Shown here: piece after piece, positions 54,665-64,000 of the stretch | Layout: each line of letters begins with the position of its first letter | How positions within the stretch are numbered: the first letter of the stretch is position 1 | DNA from: Candidatus Loosdrechtia aerotolerans | GTDB taxonomy: Bacteria; Planctomycetota; Brocadiia; Brocadiales; Brocadiaceae | Length of the DNA stretch: 64,000 nt | Assembly (NCBI GenBank): GCA_021646405.1 | Contig: SOER01000012.1 | Coordinates: forward strand, 1-64,000 | Reading direction: 5' to 3' | Position numbers and translations under genes: made by a program | Notes under the pieces: generated by a model | The model's input: the letters and a program-made list of their open reading frames with translations, nothing else | Database searches by the model: none | Told to the model about the DNA's origin: nothing

Positions 54665-55693
54665 CTATTTTACTGCAGGTGTCACACTAGTTTTTGAGAT
54701 TGATGTGCGCATGTCTGTGTCTGCCTTGACATTTTTCAGGTGATAATAATCCATGATACCCAGGTTTCCCTCACGAAATGCCTGTGCAATAGCCTTTGGT
54801 ACTTCAGCTTCTGCTGCAAGCATTTTCGCCATATTTTCTTCTGCAAGCGCCTTCATTTCCTCTTTCCGCGCAATAGCCAGTCCCTGTCGTTTTTCAGCCT
54901 CTACCTGTGCTAAACGCCTGTCTGCTTCTGCTTGTTCTGCAAGAAGTCGTAATGCAATGTTGTCGCCTACAACGATATCGACAATATTAATCGAAAGGAT
55001 CTGGAATGCCGTGTCCTTGTCGAGGCCTTTTTCCATGACAAGTCTTGATATAAGATCAGGACTTTCCAGCACTTTTTTACACGTGTCAATGGAGCTAATC
55101 GCAGCGATGATACTCTCACCTACCCGTACAATAATAGTGTCCTCTGTTGCCCCGCCGATAAGGGTATCGATTTTTGTCCGGATCGTTACACGGGCCTTAA
55201 CTTTTAGTTGTATGCCATCCTTCGTTATGGCATTGAGTGTAGGGCTGCCTTTGGAAAGGTTTGTACAGTCAATTACCTTCGGATTGATGCACGTTTTCAC
55301 AGCATCGAATACATCCCTTCCCGCGAGGTTTATTGCACAGGCATGATCGAAGCTTAACTCAATGTTTGCCTTTAATGCAGTAATCATGGCACGCACGACA
55401 TTCTTGATATCTCCACCCGCCAGGCAGTGTGATTCCAGAGAAGCGGCTGCGATATCGATACCGGCCTTTTTTGCCATAATACGATATTCCACAATAGAGC
55501 GGGTATCGGCGTGCCGAAGGGCCATACCGATCATTTGTAAGAGGGATACGCGTGCGCCGGATGTAATCGATTTGATATAGAGCCGGCTGTATTTGAAGAG
55601 TATAAATATAAATACCGCCATGAATAGAACGACAGTAATGAGTATATAGGTTGAGGTATCTGAGAGTGCCATAAGAAATAATAGGTATTGCAT
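54665..55693 (-). CDS. floA: Flotillin-like protein FloA
   Basis: FloA proteins organise membrane microdomains and affect membrane fluidity and secretion. The 342-residue protein has an N-terminal membrane helix (about 17-35), the SPFH-like region with GARVSLLQMIGMALRHADTR and LESHCLAGGDI, and the helical coiled C-terminus rich in Ala, Glu and Lys (AEQAEADRRLAQVEAEKRQ). This is the UPF0365 family. The start at 55693 has GAGGAGAG six bases upstream. It follows mutS after 17 bases and is probably in the same transcript. Confidence 0.93.
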   Translation of the reverse strand: MQYLLFLMALSDTSTYILITVVLFMAVFIFILFKYSRLYIKSITSGARVSLLQMIGMALRHADTRSIVEYRIMAKKAGIDIAAASLESHCLAGGDIKNVVRAMITALKANIELSFDHACAINLAGRDVFDAVKTCINPKVIDCTNLSKGSPTLNAITKDGIQLKVKARVTIRTKIDTLIGGATEDTIIVRVGESIIAAISSIDTCKKVLESPDLISRLVMEKGLDKDTAFQILSINIVDIVVGDNIALRLLAEQAEADRRLAQVEAEKRQGLAIARKEEMKALAEENMAKMLAAEAEVPKAIAQAFREGNLGIMDYYHLKNVKADTDMRTSISKTSVTPAVK

Positions 55694-55710
55694 GTTCTCT
55701 CCTCTGTAAA

Positions 55711-58344
55711 TTACTGGTTTTTTTGATCTTGTTGATTATTATTCCCTAACTTCTTTTTTAACTCTTCAAGTTTTACAAGGGCCTCAATGGGTGATATCCT
55801 GGATACATCAAGTTTTTTAATCTCCTCAATAACCATATCGTGTTTTGGTACAAAGAGCTTTAATTGTGCAGGCATGTTGTCCTGAGCTGTTTTTATCGGT
55901 GCAAATTTGGGTTTACCGTTTACATCCAGGGTTGCAGCCTCGAGATTATTCAGGATGATACGGGCCCTTTGAATAATCTCCTTTGGTATGCCTGCCAGGC
56001 GCGCAACATGTATTCCATAACTTTTATCCGTACCACCTTCTATGATTTTCCGCAAGAATATAATTTCATCACCCCACTCCTTAACAGCGACATTAAAATT
56101 TACTATTCCGGGAAAGAGGAGGGCCAGTTCGGTAAGTTCATGATAATGAGTAGCAAAGAGCGTTCGGGCGTGAATATGCTGGTAAATATATTCGGTAATG
56201 GCCCAGGCAATACTGATTCCATCAAAGGTACTGGTACCGCGCCCCACTTCATCCAGGATAATCAGGCTTCGTTCCGTGGCGTTATTGAGAATATTTGCCG
56301 TTTCATTCATTTCCACCATAAACGTACTTTGACCTCTTGAAAGTTCATCCGATGCGCCCACTCGTGTAAAAATCCGGTCTACCGTTCCGATCACTGCTTC
56401 TTTGGCAGGTATAAAGCTTCCTATTTGTGCCATGAGGACCAGGAGTGCTACCTGCCGGATGTAGGTACTTTTTCCTGCCATATTAGGTCCCGTGATTATC
56501 ATAACAGTATTCTGAACCCCGTCTAAATGAATATCATTCGGAACAAAACCCCCGACCGCAAATTTTGAATACAACACGGGATGGCGTCCGTCGATTATTT
56601 TTAATTCCAGGTCATCGGTAATCTCTGGCATGATATACCGGTTCTCTGCGGCAAGGTTTGCCAGGGCGGATAGCACGTCAATCAGCGCGATTGCTCCGGA
56701 TGTCCTTTGCAGTCTCGGCGTAAAGGTACTTATCTGTTCACGTATTTTCATAAAGAGATCGTATTCTAAATCTCTTGCACGTTCATCGGCTGTGAGTACC
56801 TTTGTCTCGTAGTCCTTGAGTTCTGGTGTAATAAAACGCTCTGCATTCTTAAGTGTCTGTTTCCGGATATAGGTCTTCGGTATTGTATCCTTATGGGCGT
56901 TCGTGACTTCTATATAGTATCCGAATACTTTATTGTAGCCTACTTTAAGGGAATTAATACCGGTACGTGTAATCTCACCCGCCTCAAAATTAGCAATCCA
57001 CATCTTACCGTTTTTACTTATGTACCGTAACTCATCAAGTGCCGGATCATATCCTTCCCGGATGATGCCTCCGTCCTTAATTGTCGGAGGCGGGTCCGGT
57101 ACAATAGCGGTGTTGATGAGTGCTTGTACCTCATCAAGGGTATCTAATCCTTCTTCTATGGATACCAGGATATCCGAAATGCAAAATCCCAACTGATTCC
57201 TGAGTTCCGGTAGTTTTGAAAGAGATTGTTTTAAAGCAACGAGATCACGGGCATTTGCCCGGCCGCAACTTATCTTGGTCGTAATTCGTTCAATATCATA
57301 AACATTTTGTAAAATCGTACGTATCTCCCGTCGTAACTCAGGTTTTTCGAATAACTCAAATATACCAACCTGGCGATATTTAATGTCAGCAGATACCCGA
57401 AGCGGGCTGATAACCCATTCCCTGAGTAACCGGGCACCCATAGGGGTCCTTGTCTGGTCAATTACGGACAGGAGAGATCCCTCCCGGTTATTGGTTCTCA
57501 TGGTCTGGGTAAGTTCAAGACTCTGCTGTGTCGATTTGTCGATAAGTACCCTGTTATCCGTCCGGTATCGTTGAATTTTAATGATATGTTTCAGTGACGT
57601 TTTTTGGGTTTCCTTTAGATAATGGATTACAGCGCCTGCAGCACCGAGGGCCGGGCCTATATCTTCACAGCCAAACCCTTCCAGAGATGTTGTTCCGAAG
57701 TGCTCTGTGAGGACCTGGTATGCGGTATCTTTTGAGAACTCCCAATCGGGTCGGGGAGTAACCATAGTAGTATATTCTGCCTGAATTCTTTCAAGAAAGG
57801 CGGCATTGTTTCTTGTGGTTTCTTCCGGGAGCAGAACTTCTGATGGATTGAGTCTTGCAAATTCATCAAAAAGCCTATTCCGGTGAATATCCTCGACTTC
57901 AAATCTGCCGGTAGAGAGGTCGATCCATGATAATCCTATCGTGTTATGAGTTTCTCGTAATGCTATTAAGTAATTATTACTTTTATCTTCAAGGAGAGTA
58001 TCCTCGGTGACCGTACCTGGCGTTATAACCCGTGTGACGCCACGCTCAACAATACCTCTTGCCTCTGCAGGGTTTTGTAATTGGTCGCAGATGGCAACCT
58101 TATACCCGGCCTTAATGAGCCTCCGAATATAGGATTCAGCGGCATGATGCGGTACACCCGCCATAGGTATTGACCCTTCACCCTTTGAACGGGAGGTGAG
58201 GGTAATTCCTAATACCTGAGATGCAAGTTTCGCGTCTTCAAAAAATAATTCATAAAAATCCCCCATCCGAAAAAAGAGCAGTGCATCTTTATGCCGCTTT
58301 TTAATTTCATTATATTGACGCATCATGGGTGTTTCATGTATCAT
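55711..58344 (-). CDS. mutS: DNA mismatch repair protein MutS
   Basis: MutS recognises mismatches and starts repair with MutL. From ATG 58344 it has 877 residues. The Phe-x-Glu mismatch-binding motif lies in FFRMGDFYELFFEDA near the N-terminus. The core helices and clamp follow, and the ATPase domain has GPNMAGKST (about residue 615) and the conserved DEVGRGTSTFDG. The C-terminus (KLDVSRISPIEALVKLEELKKKL) is normal. A TTG at 58359 is an alternative start; AAGGTG precedes the ATG. No mutL is in this window. Confidence 0.96.
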   Translation of the reverse strand: MIHETPMMRQYNEIKKRHKDALLFFRMGDFYELFFEDAKLASQVLGITLTSRSKGEGSIPMAGVPHHAAESYIRRLIKAGYKVAICDQLQNPAEARGIVERGVTRVITPGTVTEDTLLEDKSNNYLIALRETHNTIGLSWIDLSTGRFEVEDIHRNRLFDEFARLNPSEVLLPEETTRNNAAFLERIQAEYTTMVTPRPDWEFSKDTAYQVLTEHFGTTSLEGFGCEDIGPALGAAGAVIHYLKETQKTSLKHIIKIQRYRTDNRVLIDKSTQQSLELTQTMRTNNREGSLLSVIDQTRTPMGARLLREWVISPLRVSADIKYRQVGIFELFEKPELRREIRTILQNVYDIERITTKISCGRANARDLVALKQSLSKLPELRNQLGFCISDILVSIEEGLDTLDEVQALINTAIVPDPPPTIKDGGIIREGYDPALDELRYISKNGKMWIANFEAGEITRTGINSLKVGYNKVFGYYIEVTNAHKDTIPKTYIRKQTLKNAERFITPELKDYETKVLTADERARDLEYDLFMKIREQISTFTPRLQRTSGAIALIDVLSALANLAAENRYIMPEITDDLELKIIDGRHPVLYSKFAVGGFVPNDIHLDGVQNTVMIITGPNMAGKSTYIRQVALLVLMAQIGSFIPAKEAVIGTVDRIFTRVGASDELSRGQSTFMVEMNETANILNNATERSLIILDEVGRGTSTFDGISIAWAITEYIYQHIHARTLFATHYHELTELALLFPGIVNFNVAVKEWGDEIIFLRKIIEGGTDKSYGIHVARLAGIPKEIIQRARIILNNLEAATLDVNGKPKFAPIKTAQDNMPAQLKLFVPKHDMVIEEIKKLDVSRISPIEALVKLEELKKKLGNNNQQDQKNQ

Positions 58345-58434
58345 ATAGTACACCTTCAATTTGAGTAATACTACAATGCAACCGAAATCGGTATGGAATT
58401 TGTAAGATATGGTATTTTGTTCTTATAAGTGATC

Positions 58435-58869
58435 TCATTTTACTGAGATATTGTGTAATTGAACACTATAATTCCGGATAGTATTTTTAGGGTTACTCCG
58501 GAAAAAGTATAAGTGAGAAATGCATGAACAGTCTGATGAACCGAAGCCCTTTACAGGTATTGCGGCATTTTTTATAGTACTGATTTTGTGACTTAATGTA
58601 CATTCCATGGCTTTATTACCCTCATGTTCAGAGACGGCAACTACTTCTGCATACTGTAAAAGATAGTCAATGTGCCAGTGAAGTCCCTTTTTCTTTTGCA
58701 GATGTCTTTTGACTCTCTGTTTCAGGTTGTTCTGTGCACTTCCTATATAAATATAAAAACCTGCCGGAAAACAAAAGGTACCAAGACGCCCAATTTTTAT
58801 TGCATGTTCCCGGGGTAACGTAATGATAAGATGATATATACCTCTATCTAATGTGAGATCTGTATTCAT
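58435..58869 (-). CDS. DUF123 family protein (GIY-YIG-like)
   Basis: DUF123 proteins are small GIY-YIG-related domains, sometimes fused to endonuclease III in archaea, and are possible nucleases. The 144-residue protein (from ATG 58869; 58893 adds eight hydrophobic residues) has GIYHLIITLPR, the GIY-YIG variant GFYIYIGSAQNNLKQRVKRH, and a conserved HWHIDYLL segment. The C-terminus has a Cys-x-Cys and conserved histidine (SDCSCISHL). Placement beside mutS suggests a DNA-processing role, but this is not demonstrated. Confidence 0.8.
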   Translation of the reverse strand: MNTDLTLDRGIYHLIITLPREHAIKIGRLGTFCFPAGFYIYIGSAQNNLKQRVKRHLQKKKGLHWHIDYLLQYAEVVAVSEHEGNKAMECTLSHKISTIKNAAIPVKGFGSSDCSCISHLYFFRSNPKNTIRNYSVQLHNISVK

Positions 58870-58957
58870 GAGTAATAGTATAAAAAATTTCATGATAAAT
58901 GGAAAGGCTATATTTTAATAAGTTTGGAGTTGAAGTTTTTTAGAAAATCAATTATCC

Positions 58958-58987: not shown

Positions 58988-59033
58988 TCATATTAATATC
59001 CAGTATCTACAATTTATTGTGAGGTATAGTGTT

Positions 59034-59459
59034 ATGATTCCTGAACACTTAAAATACGCACAAACACATGAATGGTATTTCCATGATAATAAATTGGTTA
59101 CCATCGGTTTAACGAGATTTGTTATTGAAAAACTTGACAAATTATTATTCCTGGATCTGCCAAAAATTGGAGAAGAGATACTTGCAGGTATATCTTTTGG
59201 AGAATTAGAATCACTGAACACCCTTGTGGATATTACATCGCCTATAAGTGGTGAAGTTGTTGCGGTAAATGAACGCCTTTATGAAAATCTGGACATCTTA
59301 AACCGGGATCCCTATAAACAAGGTTGGCTTATCAAATTTGCAACACCGGAGATTACCTTCCTGGATCAGCTCATGAGTGCTCAGGAATATAAAACATACA
59401 TCAATAAACATGAATCTTCTATCCCAAAATATCATGCCAGAGGAAAAAGACGGAAATAA
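59034..59459 (+). CDS. GcvH-like protein lacking the lipoyl lysine
   Basis: The 141-residue protein aligns along its length with glycine cleavage H protein: PEHLKYAQTHEW, VTIGLTRFVIEKLDKLLFLDLPKIGEE and SPISGEVVAVNE. H protein normally carries lipoate on a lysine in ESVKAxxD. Here that segment is ESLNTLVD, with Asn62 instead. It therefore cannot be lipoylated at the known site. A basic tail (about 124-141) extends past the usual end. GAGGT precedes the ATG. No gcvP or gcvT lies nearby, so classical glycine cleavage is unlikely. Confidence 0.88.
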   Translation: MIPEHLKYAQTHEWYFHDNKLVTIGLTRFVIEKLDKLLFLDLPKIGEEILAGISFGELESLNTLVDITSPISGEVVAVNERLYENLDILNRDPYKQGWLIKFATPEITFLDQLMSAQEYKTYINKHESSIPKYHARGKRRK

Positions 59460-59475: not shown

Positions 59476-60510
59476 ATGGCTAAACGCAGGATTATCGTAT
59501 TAGCAGATGGTAGATTTGATATTTTTAATGCGAAAACGGCTGTTGGGGTTATTCGGTACTGCAGGGAAGAGGTTATTGCACTTATCGACCGTTACCATGT
59601 TGGAAAAGACCCGAGTGAAATCATTGGTATAGGTAAGGGAATTCCCATTGCAGATAGTATTGAAGAAATATTACCATTACAACCTACAGACCTCCTTATT
59701 GGAATTGCCCCTCCCGGTGGGGTACTGCCTCCCGAGTGGCGGAAATATCTTGTTGATGCTCTAAAAAACAGGATCAATATTATCAGCGGTCTTCATTATC
59801 ATATAGGTGAAGACCCTGAGTTTTCTCAATTGGCCCGGGATTACCGGGTAAAGATCCTTGATATTCGTAAATCACCTGAAGATCTCGGTATCGGGACTGG
59901 TAAGGCAAAAGAAACAAAGGCAGTACGTATCCTTACGGTTGGTTCAGATTGCAATGTAGGTAAAATGGTAACCTCTCTTGAAATTACCAGGGCAGCAAAG
60001 AGACGTGGTGTGAGTGCTTGTTTTGTTGCCACCGGGCAAACGGGTATTATGATCGAAGGGGCCGGAATTGCTGTAGATCATGTTCTCTCTGATTTCATTT
60101 CCGGAGCGGCTGAAAAACTTATGCTTGAACGTGCTCATTATCAACTTTTGAGTGTTGAAGGACAGGGTTCCCTTGTTCATCCGGCATATTCCGGTGTAAC
60201 CCTTGGTTTACTTCATGGTATAGTCCCGCAGGGTCTGATCCTGTGTCATCAACCGACACGAAAAATGGTGCGTCATACCAATTTTCCGCTTCTGCCGCTT
60301 CCACGCCTGATTGAACTCTACGAGGGCATAGCACACCCTGTTCATCCTTGTAAAGTGCTCGGGATTTCGCTCAATTGTTTTGGCATGTCCGATCAGGAAG
60401 CACGAGAGGAGATTCAAAATACGGAGAAAGAGACAAAACTTCCTGCTACTGACCCTTTGAAATTTGGTGTGGACAAATTTATTGACACTATCCGTCCTCT
60501 GTTACCATGA
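59476..60510 (+). CDS. DUF1611 family protein (DgcN-like)
   Basis: DUF1611 members include DgcN, reported to acetylate D-glutamate. From ATG 59476 the protein has 344 residues: an N-terminal Rossmann-like domain starting RRIIVLADGRFDIFNAKTAVG, then a P-loop-like domain with GSDCNVGKM (156-164) and SVEGQGSLVHPAYSGVTLGL near 231. The C-terminus contains HQPTRKMV. The frame is open upstream to 59377, overlapping the GcvH-like gene, but the family start fits 59476. It overlaps the next gene by four bases. Its function here is inferred from family and neighbours. Confidence 0.82.
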   Translation: MAKRRIIVLADGRFDIFNAKTAVGVIRYCREEVIALIDRYHVGKDPSEIIGIGKGIPIADSIEEILPLQPTDLLIGIAPPGGVLPPEWRKYLVDALKNRINIISGLHYHIGEDPEFSQLARDYRVKILDIRKSPEDLGIGTGKAKETKAVRILTVGSDCNVGKMVTSLEITRAAKRRGVSACFVATGQTGIMIEGAGIAVDHVLSDFISGAAEKLMLERAHYQLLSVEGQGSLVHPAYSGVTLGLLHGIVPQGLILCHQPTRKMVRHTNFPLLPLPRLIELYEGIAHPVHPCKVLGISLNCFGMSDQEAREEIQNTEKETKLPATDPLKFGVDKFIDTIRPLLP

Positions 60511-61529
60511 AACTCTCCTTTCATCCCATTGCCCTACACTTGAAACATACCTTCCGGATTGCCAGAGAGATCCGTGATGTTCAAAATACGGTTATTATTC
60601 AACTTAACGATGAAGACGGAATATGCGGGTATGGAGAAGCTGCTCCTACGACCTTTTTTGGTGAAGACAGCAACAGTGTTATGGAAACGTTTGGCAGGGC
60701 CGCCGGTTTACTGGAAAATGCCGATCCTTTCCAGATAGAAGATATAACTGCCCGCCTGGCATATACATTTCCTCAGGATACTGCCGCACGGGCGGCAATT
60801 GATATGGCGCTTCATGATCTGGTTGCCAGGAAGCTGAAAATACCCCTCTATAAACTTTTTGGTTTAAACCAACACGATACCAGGGTAACATCATTCACAA
60901 TAGGAATCGATACGATAGAAAAGATGTGTGAAAAGGTTGAGGAGGCTAAGGATTTTCCCGTTCTTAAGATAAAGGCAGGAACGAGGAATGATATAGAAAT
61001 CCTTGAGGAACTGCGTAAGATTACGAAAGCCGTCTTCCGTGTTGATGCCAATACCGGTTGGACGGTAAATGAGGCAATAGAGAAGTTGCATATCATGGAA
61101 GAACTCGGGGTTGAGCTTGTAGAGCAGCCATTTCCCGCCGGTGATATTGAATCCTTGAGAAAAATACGAGGCCAGGTAAAGATTCCGGTATTTGCTGATG
61201 AAGATGTGAAAATCTCAGCCGATATACCGGGACTTTTGGGAGTGGTGGACGGAATTAATATTAAACTGATGAAATGCGGCGGTATCCGGGAGGCTGTCCG
61301 GATGATTCATACGGCCCGGGTCCATGGCCTTAAGATAATGATCGGCTGTAATATCGAAAGCTCTCTGTCCGTCACGGCGGCCGCTCATATCATGTCCCTG
61401 GTTGATTATGTCGACCTTGATGGACATTTGCTTATTACAAATGATCCATATGCCGGGGTAATGGTTAATAAGGGAAGACTACTGTTGCCGGAGGGTAATG
61501 GCCTGGGGGTTTTTCAAAAGACAGAGTGA
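60507..61529 (+). CDS. Dipeptide epimerase family enzyme (DgcA/YcjG-like)
   Basis: Enolase-superfamily member of the muconate-lactonising/dipeptide epimerase group. The 340-residue protein has the KxK pair Lys154 and Lys156 (LKIKAG), metal ligands Asp180, Glu206 and Asp231, and the second lysine Lys253 (NIKLMK). All catalytic positions for 1,1-proton transfer are present. Likely substrates are L-Ala-D/L-Glu or N-acyl glutamate. It starts within the DUF1611 stop (ATGA) and precedes an M20 amidohydrolase. Confidence 0.88.
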   Translation: MKLSFHPIALHLKHTFRIAREIRDVQNTVIIQLNDEDGICGYGEAAPTTFFGEDSNSVMETFGRAAGLLENADPFQIEDITARLAYTFPQDTAARAAIDMALHDLVARKLKIPLYKLFGLNQHDTRVTSFTIGIDTIEKMCEKVEEAKDFPVLKIKAGTRNDIEILEELRKITKAVFRVDANTGWTVNEAIEKLHIMEELGVELVEQPFPAGDIESLRKIRGQVKIPVFADEDVKISADIPGLLGVVDGINIKLMKCGGIREAVRMIHTARVHGLKIMIGCNIESSLSVTAAAHIMSLVDYVDLDGHLLITNDPYAGVMVNKGRLLLPEGNGLGVFQKTE

Positions 61530-61560
61530 CACGATTACCAGAGAAAATGTAAAAGAGAGT

Positions 61561-62742
61561 ATGCAGGACAAAACGCTTACACAAGAAATAGTAGTGGGTG
61601 CCAAAAAGATACACGATTATGTTATCCGGCTGCGCAGGAATTTTCATGAGTATCCCGAGACCGGATTTCACGAGGTTCGCACATCACATGTTATTGCAGA
61701 GGAATTAAAACGATTAGGGCTTCACGTGCAGACCGGTATTGCAAAAACAGGCGTTGTTGGTACCCTGCCGGTACACGGTGCATCGCGTACGGTAGCCTTC
61801 AGGGCTGACATGGATGCATTACCTATAGCAGAGGAAAATGACTGCGAATTTAAATCAAAACATGAAGGAATATCGCATGCCTGCGGGCATGATGCGAACA
61901 TGGCAATGCTCCTTGGTGCCGCGAGGCTCATGGTACAATTCAAGGATAAACTGAAGAGACAGGTAAAATTTATCTTTCAACCGTGTGAGGAGCAACATCC
62001 CGGTGGCGCAAAACTCATGGTAGAGCAGGGTGTGCTGCACGGTGTTGATGAGATTTATGGAATGCATATTGAACCGAATATGCCAGCCGGTGTCTTTGGG
62101 GTACGGTACGGTGCTACTATGGCAGCAACAGACCGTATTGTTATTACTATTATCGGAAAGGGCGGACATGCATCAACTCCTCATTTATGTGTGGACCCTG
62201 TTGTTATAGCTGCAGAAGTAATCCTGGCTATTCAAACCATTGTTTCCCGGATGATAAACCCCCTGTCTCCCTGCGTGATCTCATTATGCCAACTGTCAGG
62301 AGGAACGGCATTTAATATTATTCCTGAGAAAGTAACAATGACAGGTACGGTGAGGACCCTTTGCAAGGAATTGAGATACAGAATGCCAATCGTAATAGAA
62401 GACACAATAAAGGGGATCACTTCACGCTATAATGCAGCATATCACTTTGAGTATCTTAAGGGGCATCCCCTCCTGAATAATCCTCAGCCCCAATTGAATT
62501 TCATACAGGACAAAATTATTGAACTTTTCGGTAGTAAATCAGTAGAAAGGATAGATCCCAGGATGGGGGGAGAAGATTTTTCTTATTACCTGGAGAAAAT
62601 ACAGGGAGCGTATGTTTTTTTAGGCGCAGGGAATCCTGAAAAGGGTATTGATCAGCCTTTACACAGCCCCCGGTTTCAGTTAGATGAAGAGGTATTGTAC
62701 AGAGGCCCGGCGCTCTTCTCTTATATTGCATGTAATCCATAG
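61561..62742 (+). CDS. M20 family amidohydrolase
   Basis: M20D-type metal enzymes remove acyl groups from amino acids or cleave amidated amino acids. From ATG 61561 the protein has 393 residues with RADMDALPI (Asp83), HACGHDANM (Cys108, His110), FQPCEEQHPGGAKLM with catalytic Glu-Glu, and MGGEDFSYYLE for the second metal. The position after Gln-Pro is Cys instead of the usual Ala. The frame opens 32 bases inside the epimerase gene at 61498, but the ribosome-binding site AAGAGAG favours 61561. An N-acetyl-glutamate deacylase role fits the neighbours. Confidence 0.85.
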   Translation: MQDKTLTQEIVVGAKKIHDYVIRLRRNFHEYPETGFHEVRTSHVIAEELKRLGLHVQTGIAKTGVVGTLPVHGASRTVAFRADMDALPIAEENDCEFKSKHEGISHACGHDANMAMLLGAARLMVQFKDKLKRQVKFIFQPCEEQHPGGAKLMVEQGVLHGVDEIYGMHIEPNMPAGVFGVRYGATMAATDRIVITIIGKGGHASTPHLCVDPVVIAAEVILAIQTIVSRMINPLSPCVISLCQLSGGTAFNIIPEKVTMTGTVRTLCKELRYRMPIVIEDTIKGITSRYNAAYHFEYLKGHPLLNNPQPQLNFIQDKIIELFGSKSVERIDPRMGGEDFSYYLEKIQGAYVFLGAGNPEKGIDQPLHSPRFQLDEEVLYRGPALFSYIACNP

Positions 62743-63288: not shown

Positions 63289-64000
63289 ATGAACCCAGTT
63301 TTCATACTACTTATATCTCTTGTTTGCCTCTTTTTAGCAGGACGTTTTTATGCCCGGTTTCTGTCGAAATCGGTAGGGATTGATTCAAAACGAGCCACTC
63401 CTGCGGTAAAAATAAATGATAAACGCGACTACGTCCCTACTGCAACTCCCATTGTTTTTGCACACCATTTTGCCACGATAGCAGGTGCGGGACCCATTAT
63501 TGGCCCTGTTATGGCTTTGATTTATGGATGGGGACCTGCCTGGCTGTGGATTGTACTCGGGGGGATATTCTTCGGGGCTGTACATGATTTTTCTGCCCTG
63601 TTTGTCAGTGTGCGTGAGGGGGGGAAGTCCATCGCGGAGGTTGCCAGAAAATCTTTGGGTACCCCTGGCTTTCTTATGGTGATCTCATTCACCATTGTAA
63701 TGCTGATTCTTGTGAATGCCACATTTCTTAATGCATCAGCGGCAGCCCTGACGTCTGTCATTGACAGCGTACAAATGGGTCTGGATAAAAGTCAGGTTTT
63801 TTTTCGCTGGGCTGATGAGGCCGGCGGCAGGGTTATAGTAGGTGGAATTGCTTCCATGTCTGTTGTTATTATAACTCTCTTTGCCCCGCTTATTGGATAT
63901 CTTTATATCAAAAGACACATTTCTGTTATACGGTGTTCACTCTTTGCCGTTCTCATTTGTATCATATCGGTCGTTATAGGTTTCTTTGTACCAATTTCTC
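63289..64000 (+). CDS. cstA: Carbon starvation protein CstA (partial)
   Basis: CstA proteins are multi-pass membrane transporters for peptides or pyruvate, induced at carbon limitation. The first 237 residues are present; the gene runs past the window end. The signatures are clear: TPIVFAHHFATIAGAGPIIG (about 47-66), GGIFFGAVHDFSALFVSVREGGKS, and several membrane helices. The context of glutamate or dipeptide-processing genes upstream suits peptide uptake. The palindromic element lies directly upstream. Confidence 0.92.
   Translation, partial: MNPVFILLISLVCLFLAGRFYARFLSKSVGIDSKRATPAVKINDKRDYVPTATPIVFAHHFATIAGAGPIIGPVMALIYGWGPAWLWIVLGGIFFGAVHDFSALFVSVREGGKSIAEVARKSLGTPGFLMVISFTIVMLILVNATFLNASAAALTSVIDSVQMGLDKSQVFFRWADEAGGRVIVGGIASMSVVIITLFAPLIGYLYIKRHISVIRCSLFAVLICIISVVIGFFVPIS

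Follow-up and report, generated by a model that had tools for sequence, protein, structure and literature searches.

A compact run of genes in the genome of Candidatus Loosdrechtia aerotolerans raises the question of whether it encodes a route from D-glutamate to L-glutamate or serves the recycling of murein peptides, both of which had been put forward in an earlier note on this DNA. The stretch analysed (64,000 nt, hereafter the window) comes from a genome that is 99.4% complete and in which hydrazine synthase alpha (PF18582) was detected, identifying the host as an anammox bacterium; the same domain was found in most of the relatives searched (27/39 in the tally). The genes for a DUF1611 protein, an epimerase and an M20 enzyme, previously read from the sequence at 59476-62742, are borne out at the same coordinates on the + strand by matches to Pfam and NCBIfam models, and lie in the following setting.

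54665-58893, - strand: divergent block of FloA, MutS and DUF123/GIY-YIG genes, kept beside the operon in many genomes of the family
59034..59459, + strand: GcvH-like protein, 141 aa (PF01597, 6.3e-30; alignment to solved H proteins)
59476..60510, + strand: DUF1611 protein, DgcN-like, 344 aa (PF07755, E 2.8e-71, and PF17396; DgcN model NF041892, E 9.5e-81, under cut-off)
60507..61529, + strand: epimerase/racemase of the enolase superfamily (MR/MLE), 340 aa (PF13378/PF02746)
61561..62742, + strand: M20D amidohydrolase/aminoacylase-type peptidase, 393 aa (TIGR01891, above cut-off), a loosely linked member
63289..63999, + strand: CstA-family transporter, 5' part only, running off the end of the window (PF02554, 1.7e-59)

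In the window the GcvH-like gene lies 16 bp upstream of the DUF1611 gene, which overlaps the epimerase gene by 4 bp; the M20 gene follows after 31 bp, and cstA begins 546 bp downstream of it. An earlier in-frame start (GTG at 59019) is possible for the GcvH-like gene, and the M20 ORF could open at 61498, although homology begins only at 61561. Promoter and terminator scans of the locus gave results no better than shuffled sequences. The explanation we consider best, with a chance of being correct that we put at about even, is a translationally coupled operon led by the GcvH-like gene and built around a diverged pair of the DgcN/DgcA type.

The arrangement was compared across 32 further genomes from the family. 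A full-length epimerase is encoded in 28 of these and a fragment, at a contig end, in one more; the three genomes that have none are 86%, 95% and 58% complete. In all 28 full loci the epimerase is preceded by the GcvH-like and DUF1611 genes. The gap between these two is 14-19 bp in 21/21 measured loci, over a range of about 57-69% protein identity, and the spacing from DUF1611 to epimerase is -4 bp, again in 21/21. Since adjacency of the pair is retained together with the upstream gene in every full locus, and at constant spacing, it is more than a chance association. The gaps from epimerase to M20 (31-488 bp) and from M20 to CstA (5-546 bp) vary widely, and M20 is adjacent in 17 of 20 wide family loci, CstA in only five. 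The locked unit in this family is therefore GcvH-like > DUF1611 > epimerase, with M20 and cstA outside the constant core; cstA probably does not belong to the operon core at all. The M20 gene is retained in most of the family but is unlinked in one complete genome (G010). Among other Brocadiales families a close epimerase is missing from most genomes, and the single one found (G034, 59% identity) lies in an operon that is likewise led by a GcvH-like gene (L096). The tight packing of three genes described in the earlier note thus holds for the first two and is looser for M20, and of the five-gene order proposed there only the first three genes are constant; the extension to cstA is weak, given its distance in the window and its rarity as a neighbour.

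How far conserved order reflects function is less clear. The unrelated, divergent DUF123 gene adjoins the operon in 17/20 wide loci and MutS in 14/20, so that the FloA/MutS/DUF123 block provides a useful yardstick for background synteny. As DUF123 is as conserved a neighbour as M20, the linkage of M20 is no stronger than this background. It is quite possible, if short of probable, that the gene order is inherited synteny only and that M20, CstA and the GcvH-like protein are functionally unlinked to the pair, a reading compatible with either substrate. It agrees with the behaviour of lysine-less GcvH genes in other anammox families, which adjoin unrelated genes (described below), and with a scan of GTDB genomes using the DUF1611 alignment, where a GcvH-like or M20 neighbour was seen in 0/78 loci outside the order (among the best-scoring 80 of more than 585). 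Against it stand the near-invariant spacing of the GcvH-like and DUF1611 genes across diverged proteins and the identical order in the sister family.

The DUF1611-epimerase pair itself is widespread. In 38/78 of the DUF1611 loci from other orders an epimerase gene lies next to DUF1611 on the same strand, at a median distance of about 2 bp, and the arrangement is DUF1611>epimerase in 32 of those 38, these fractions coming from the best-scoring 80 of more than 585 loci and so not being unbiased. Within the same set, hosts of the pair include Chloroflexota, other Planctomycetota, Actinomycetota, Melainabacteria/cyanobacteria and haloarchaea. A DUF1611 gene is also present in Haloferax volcanii. 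Pfam scans of the DUF1611 neighbours in other phyla found no consistent partner; ArgJ occurs twice and serine beta-lactamase/PBP-type hydrolases several times, which is suggestive only. Genes for DUF1611 with no adjacent epimerase occur in Poribacteria (L102-L108, L179) and Gemmatimonadota (L111-L131), several of the poribacterial ones having an upstream gene of a xylose-isomerase-like TIM-barrel family. Annotated dgcN-dgcA loci share the architecture and lie beside a D-amino-acid transaminase, peptide ABC transporter or dicarboxylate symporter. One such pair, in Klebsiella pneumoniae, is carried with a peptide/glutathione-type ABC transporter on the conjugative plasmid pKPN_CZ (L181), and dgcN is recurrent on many Klebsiella and Enterobacter plasmids.

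The surprising part of the operon is the GcvH-like protein. The GCV_H domain covers its whole length, as in the GcvH/LbpA lipoyl carriers, but in alignment to solved H proteins ESLNT replaces ESVKA, placing Asn62 at the position of the lipoyl lysine, a loss that the earlier note had overlooked. Across the family this site is occupied by E, D, N, H or S, never K, and a lysine-less copy (N/D/S/E) is present in 12/12 further Brocadiales genomes outside the family. Examples of this order-wide paralogue are found at 59034-59459 and at L085, L086, L087, L090, L091 and L096. Canonical GcvHs with the lysine are encoded elsewhere in Brocadiales genomes, including that of the host (C31:31280), and K is likewise present in every best GcvH match from 19 planctomycetes that do not belong to the order. 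Some Brocadiales genomes encode a third class of GcvH-like protein, which keeps its lysine and has the motif SLEAGKYIGP (L082, L094, L095 and L097, from G042, G033, G034 and G040); at a guess it is LbpA-like and lipoate-binding. A basic C-terminal tail further separates the protein of the window (KYHARGKRRK) from the known carriers. In most of the family the tail is KGKRRK-like, and two other families have a long one rich in Lys; the high purine content at the end of the gene may in part stem from signals for translating the gene downstream. The protein scores 104 bits to PF01597, narrowly over the cut-off of NF002270 (118.7 vs 117 bits) and under that of TIGR00527 (107.2 vs 115.85).

In other anammox families the neighbours of the lysine-less gene, named from their translations, are miaA/YhaM-like, ThpR/gltX/argC/tyrS, or NifU/pcnB, and the tie between GcvH and DUF1611 is therefore specific to the family of the window and one sister. 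As the paralogue cannot carry lipoate, its role, if any, would be structural or regulatory and not in glycine cleavage. The idea that this gene extends the module is accordingly borne out by the order of the genes but not in terms of lipoate chemistry. It is conceivable but very improbable that the paralogue has been turned from a cofactor carrier into a protein component of a pathway for D-amino acids or N-acyl amino acids, in which it would serve the acyltransferase-like DUF1611 enzyme as a dedicated scaffold, regulator or substrate-presenting partner that bears no lipoate.

The DUF1611 protein is spanned over its full length by an N-terminal PF17396 and a C-terminal PF07755 domain, and has a non-canonical P-loop (GSDCNVGKM). 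Its AlphaFold model (pLDDT 95.3) gave full-length Foldseek matches only to DUF1611 structures (2obn, 7xrj and 2g0t), with TM 0.91-0.95 to 2obn and TM 0.85/0.88 (E 3.5e-33) to 7xrj, 'N-acetyltransferase DgcN-25328'. The score to the DgcN equivalog NF041892 is 271.3 bits, below the cut-off of 480, and four annotated DgcNs form a clade apart from the anammox proteins. The two groups agree at 58 fixed positions, among them the P-loop region and the TGQTG/EGQG motifs, and differ at nine others that are fixed within each group (e.g. R184>V, W224>L, D225>L).

For the epimerase, the motifs KxK, DAN, EQP, ADE and IKLMK are present, as well as DLDG (DxD), and the catalytic residues of the enolase superfamily are conserved (K154/K156, D180, E206, D231 and the lysine of IKLMK). 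The nearest structures to its model (pLDDT 96.2) are 3iji/3ijq, a Bacteroides dipeptide epimerase with L-Ala-D-Glu (TM 0.94-0.95). The protein is 42% identical to this dipeptide epimerase, whereas its identity to E. coli YcjG is 31% and to the annotated DgcAs 29-34%. The best NCBIfam model is DgcA (NF042940), but at 238.7 bits the protein falls short of the cut-off of 400, and it lies outside the annotated DgcA clade; scores to the dipeptide epimerase equivalogs are 176.2 bits for NF041118 (cut-off 500) and 152.6 for NF011708 (cut-off 343). Within the family GCM has become GCN (N282) in 22/22 sequences, while M is found in nearly all others shown, including the copy in the sister family; N282 would lie in the active site.

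Compared with known DgcN-DgcA systems (e.g. Ruegeria TM1040_RS01230/RS01235), the locus has the same DUF1611 gene and adjacent enolase-superfamily racemase on one strand, the folds are the same, and the DgcN signature segments are retained. It differs in sequence (identity about 36% to the 7xrj sequence for the DUF1611 protein, and the low values given above for the epimerase), in that both proteins fall under the equivalog cut-offs and into separate clades, and in its neighbours, where a GcvH without the lysine and a hydrolase of the M20 family take the place of a D-amino-acid transaminase or transporter. The pair is thus a diverged variant of the known one: the DgcN/DgcA-like reading of the earlier note stands at the level of fold and family, on the 7xrj match, the NF041892 E-value and the choice of NF042940 as best model, but not at that of the equivalogs.

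The M20 enzyme scores 369.5 bits to TIGR01891 (cut-off 153.75) and below the cut-off of the CpsA model, and its best PDB match is YxeP (1ysj). It shares the metal-ligand motifs HACGHD, EE, HIxP and LHS with M20D amidohydrolases (YxeP, CpsA, IAA-amino acid hydrolases), but reads HACGHDAN where HDAH is usual in M20D, the N being kept in nearly all family members. Release of L-glutamate by this enzyme, the third step proposed earlier, is plausible, although its linkage is loose.

The route that these features suggest would begin with N-acylation, most likely N-acetylation, of what is presumed to be D-glutamate by the DUF1611 protein. The epimerase would then invert the N-acyl compound at its alpha-carbon, using the metal-assisted chemistry with two lysines that characterises its superfamily, and the M20 enzyme, where present, would strip the acyl group to give L-glutamate; alternatively, N-acetyl-L-glutamate may enter an ArgJ-type arginine pathway. 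We regard this pathway, with a diverged DgcN/DgcA-type pair making and epimerising an N-acyl D-Glu that is deacylated or passed on, as finely balanced between right and wrong. What the data establish is which genes are present, how the operon is laid out and conserved, that the catalytic residues are intact and that the lipoyl lysine is gone; the substrates, the passage of intermediates between the enzymes and the part played by the GcvH-like protein are inferred. In favour of the pathway count the adjacency of the pair across several phyla, the shared architecture of annotated dgcN-dgcA loci, the occurrence of the pair in haloarchaea, which have no murein, the presence of ArgJ in the host, the DgcN fold match with its 58 shared positions, DgcA as the best model for the epimerase and the invariant 4 bp overlap; against it count the sub-cut-off scores, the separate clades, the nine differing positions, the higher identity of the epimerase to a dipeptide epimerase than to DgcAs, the presence of MurI, which already interconverts L- and D-Glu, and the background level of M20 linkage. 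In Shewanella, DgcN and DgcA have been described as converting D-Glu to L-Glu (PMC10845958), and both reactions have been named (EC 2.3.1.312 / 5.1.1.25; PMC11747546). Two other accounts were rejected: DUF1611 and M20 do not substitute for an absent ArgJ, as 13/14 genomes checked have it, and loss of MurI is not the reason for the pair, as MurI is encoded.

It is rather unlikely that the pair acts on some other substrate than Glu, whether a dipeptide or an amino acid in N-acylated form. Specificity shifts among epimerases of the enolase superfamily, N282 of the family replaces an M that is near-constant elsewhere, and M20D enzymes have broad acyl specificity; however, every DUF1611-epimerase pair characterised to our knowledge acts on D-Glu. 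A relative in T. maritima prefers L-Ala-D/L-Phe, Tyr and His (PMC5808125), and AEE-family enzymes have been noted in archaea and plants that have no peptidoglycan (PMC3605383), both of which favour another substrate.

Recycling of murein peptides, in which the epimerase would be a true L-Ala-D/L-Glu dipeptide epimerase, M20 would cleave L-Ala-L-Glu, and DUF1611 would be accessory or have a separate role, is distinctly unlikely. All catalytic and metal-binding residues of the epimerase, along with the DxD (D303/D305, invariant across the set), are shared with the L-Ala-D/L-Glu epimerases (B. thetaiotaomicron 3iji, E. coli YcjG, B. subtilis YkfB), which also provide the closest structures overall; the M20D enzyme resembles the carboxypeptidase CpsA, and with MurI the host makes D-Glu. 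The DxD was rejected as a marker of dipeptide epimerases, since annotated DgcAs have it too, and the M of IKLMK with the E of NIESS was dropped as a discriminator from DgcA, since YcjG shows the DgcA-like letters. As YcjG is a proven dipeptide epimerase, neither N-acetyl-D-Glu nor L-Ala-D-Glu can be preferred as substrate from the sequence, and the closest solved relative is a dipeptide epimerase with L-Ala-D-Glu. The locus differs from those of such enzymes in the DUF1611 linkage, the change to GCN and the lack of the usual partners: neither an LD-carboxypeptidase (S66) nor an NlpC/P60 or M14 (MpaA) peptidase that would yield L-Ala-D-Glu was found in the host genome, whereas E. coli ycjG adjoins mpaA and mppA. 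YcjG and YkfB are assigned to murein recycling on account of endopeptidases encoded next to them (PMC5808125), and the absence of such enzymes here weakens the murein alternative of the earlier note, although a peptidase of an unnamed family may exist. Also against it are the rarity of a close epimerase in other anammox families and the presence of the pair in haloarchaea, which have no murein.

The comparison brings out a broad DUF1611-epimerase family that extends to haloarchaea; its members cannot clearly be assigned either to DgcN/DgcA or to murein enzymes, and automatic names given to them may therefore be wrong. Similarly, as the lysine-less GcvH passes NF002270, annotation pipelines may label it a functional H protein although that site cannot be lipoylated. 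Anammox bacteria are taken as narrow chemolithoautotrophs; if the pair does act on D-glutamate, they would gain a step for its salvage or scavenging besides MurI.
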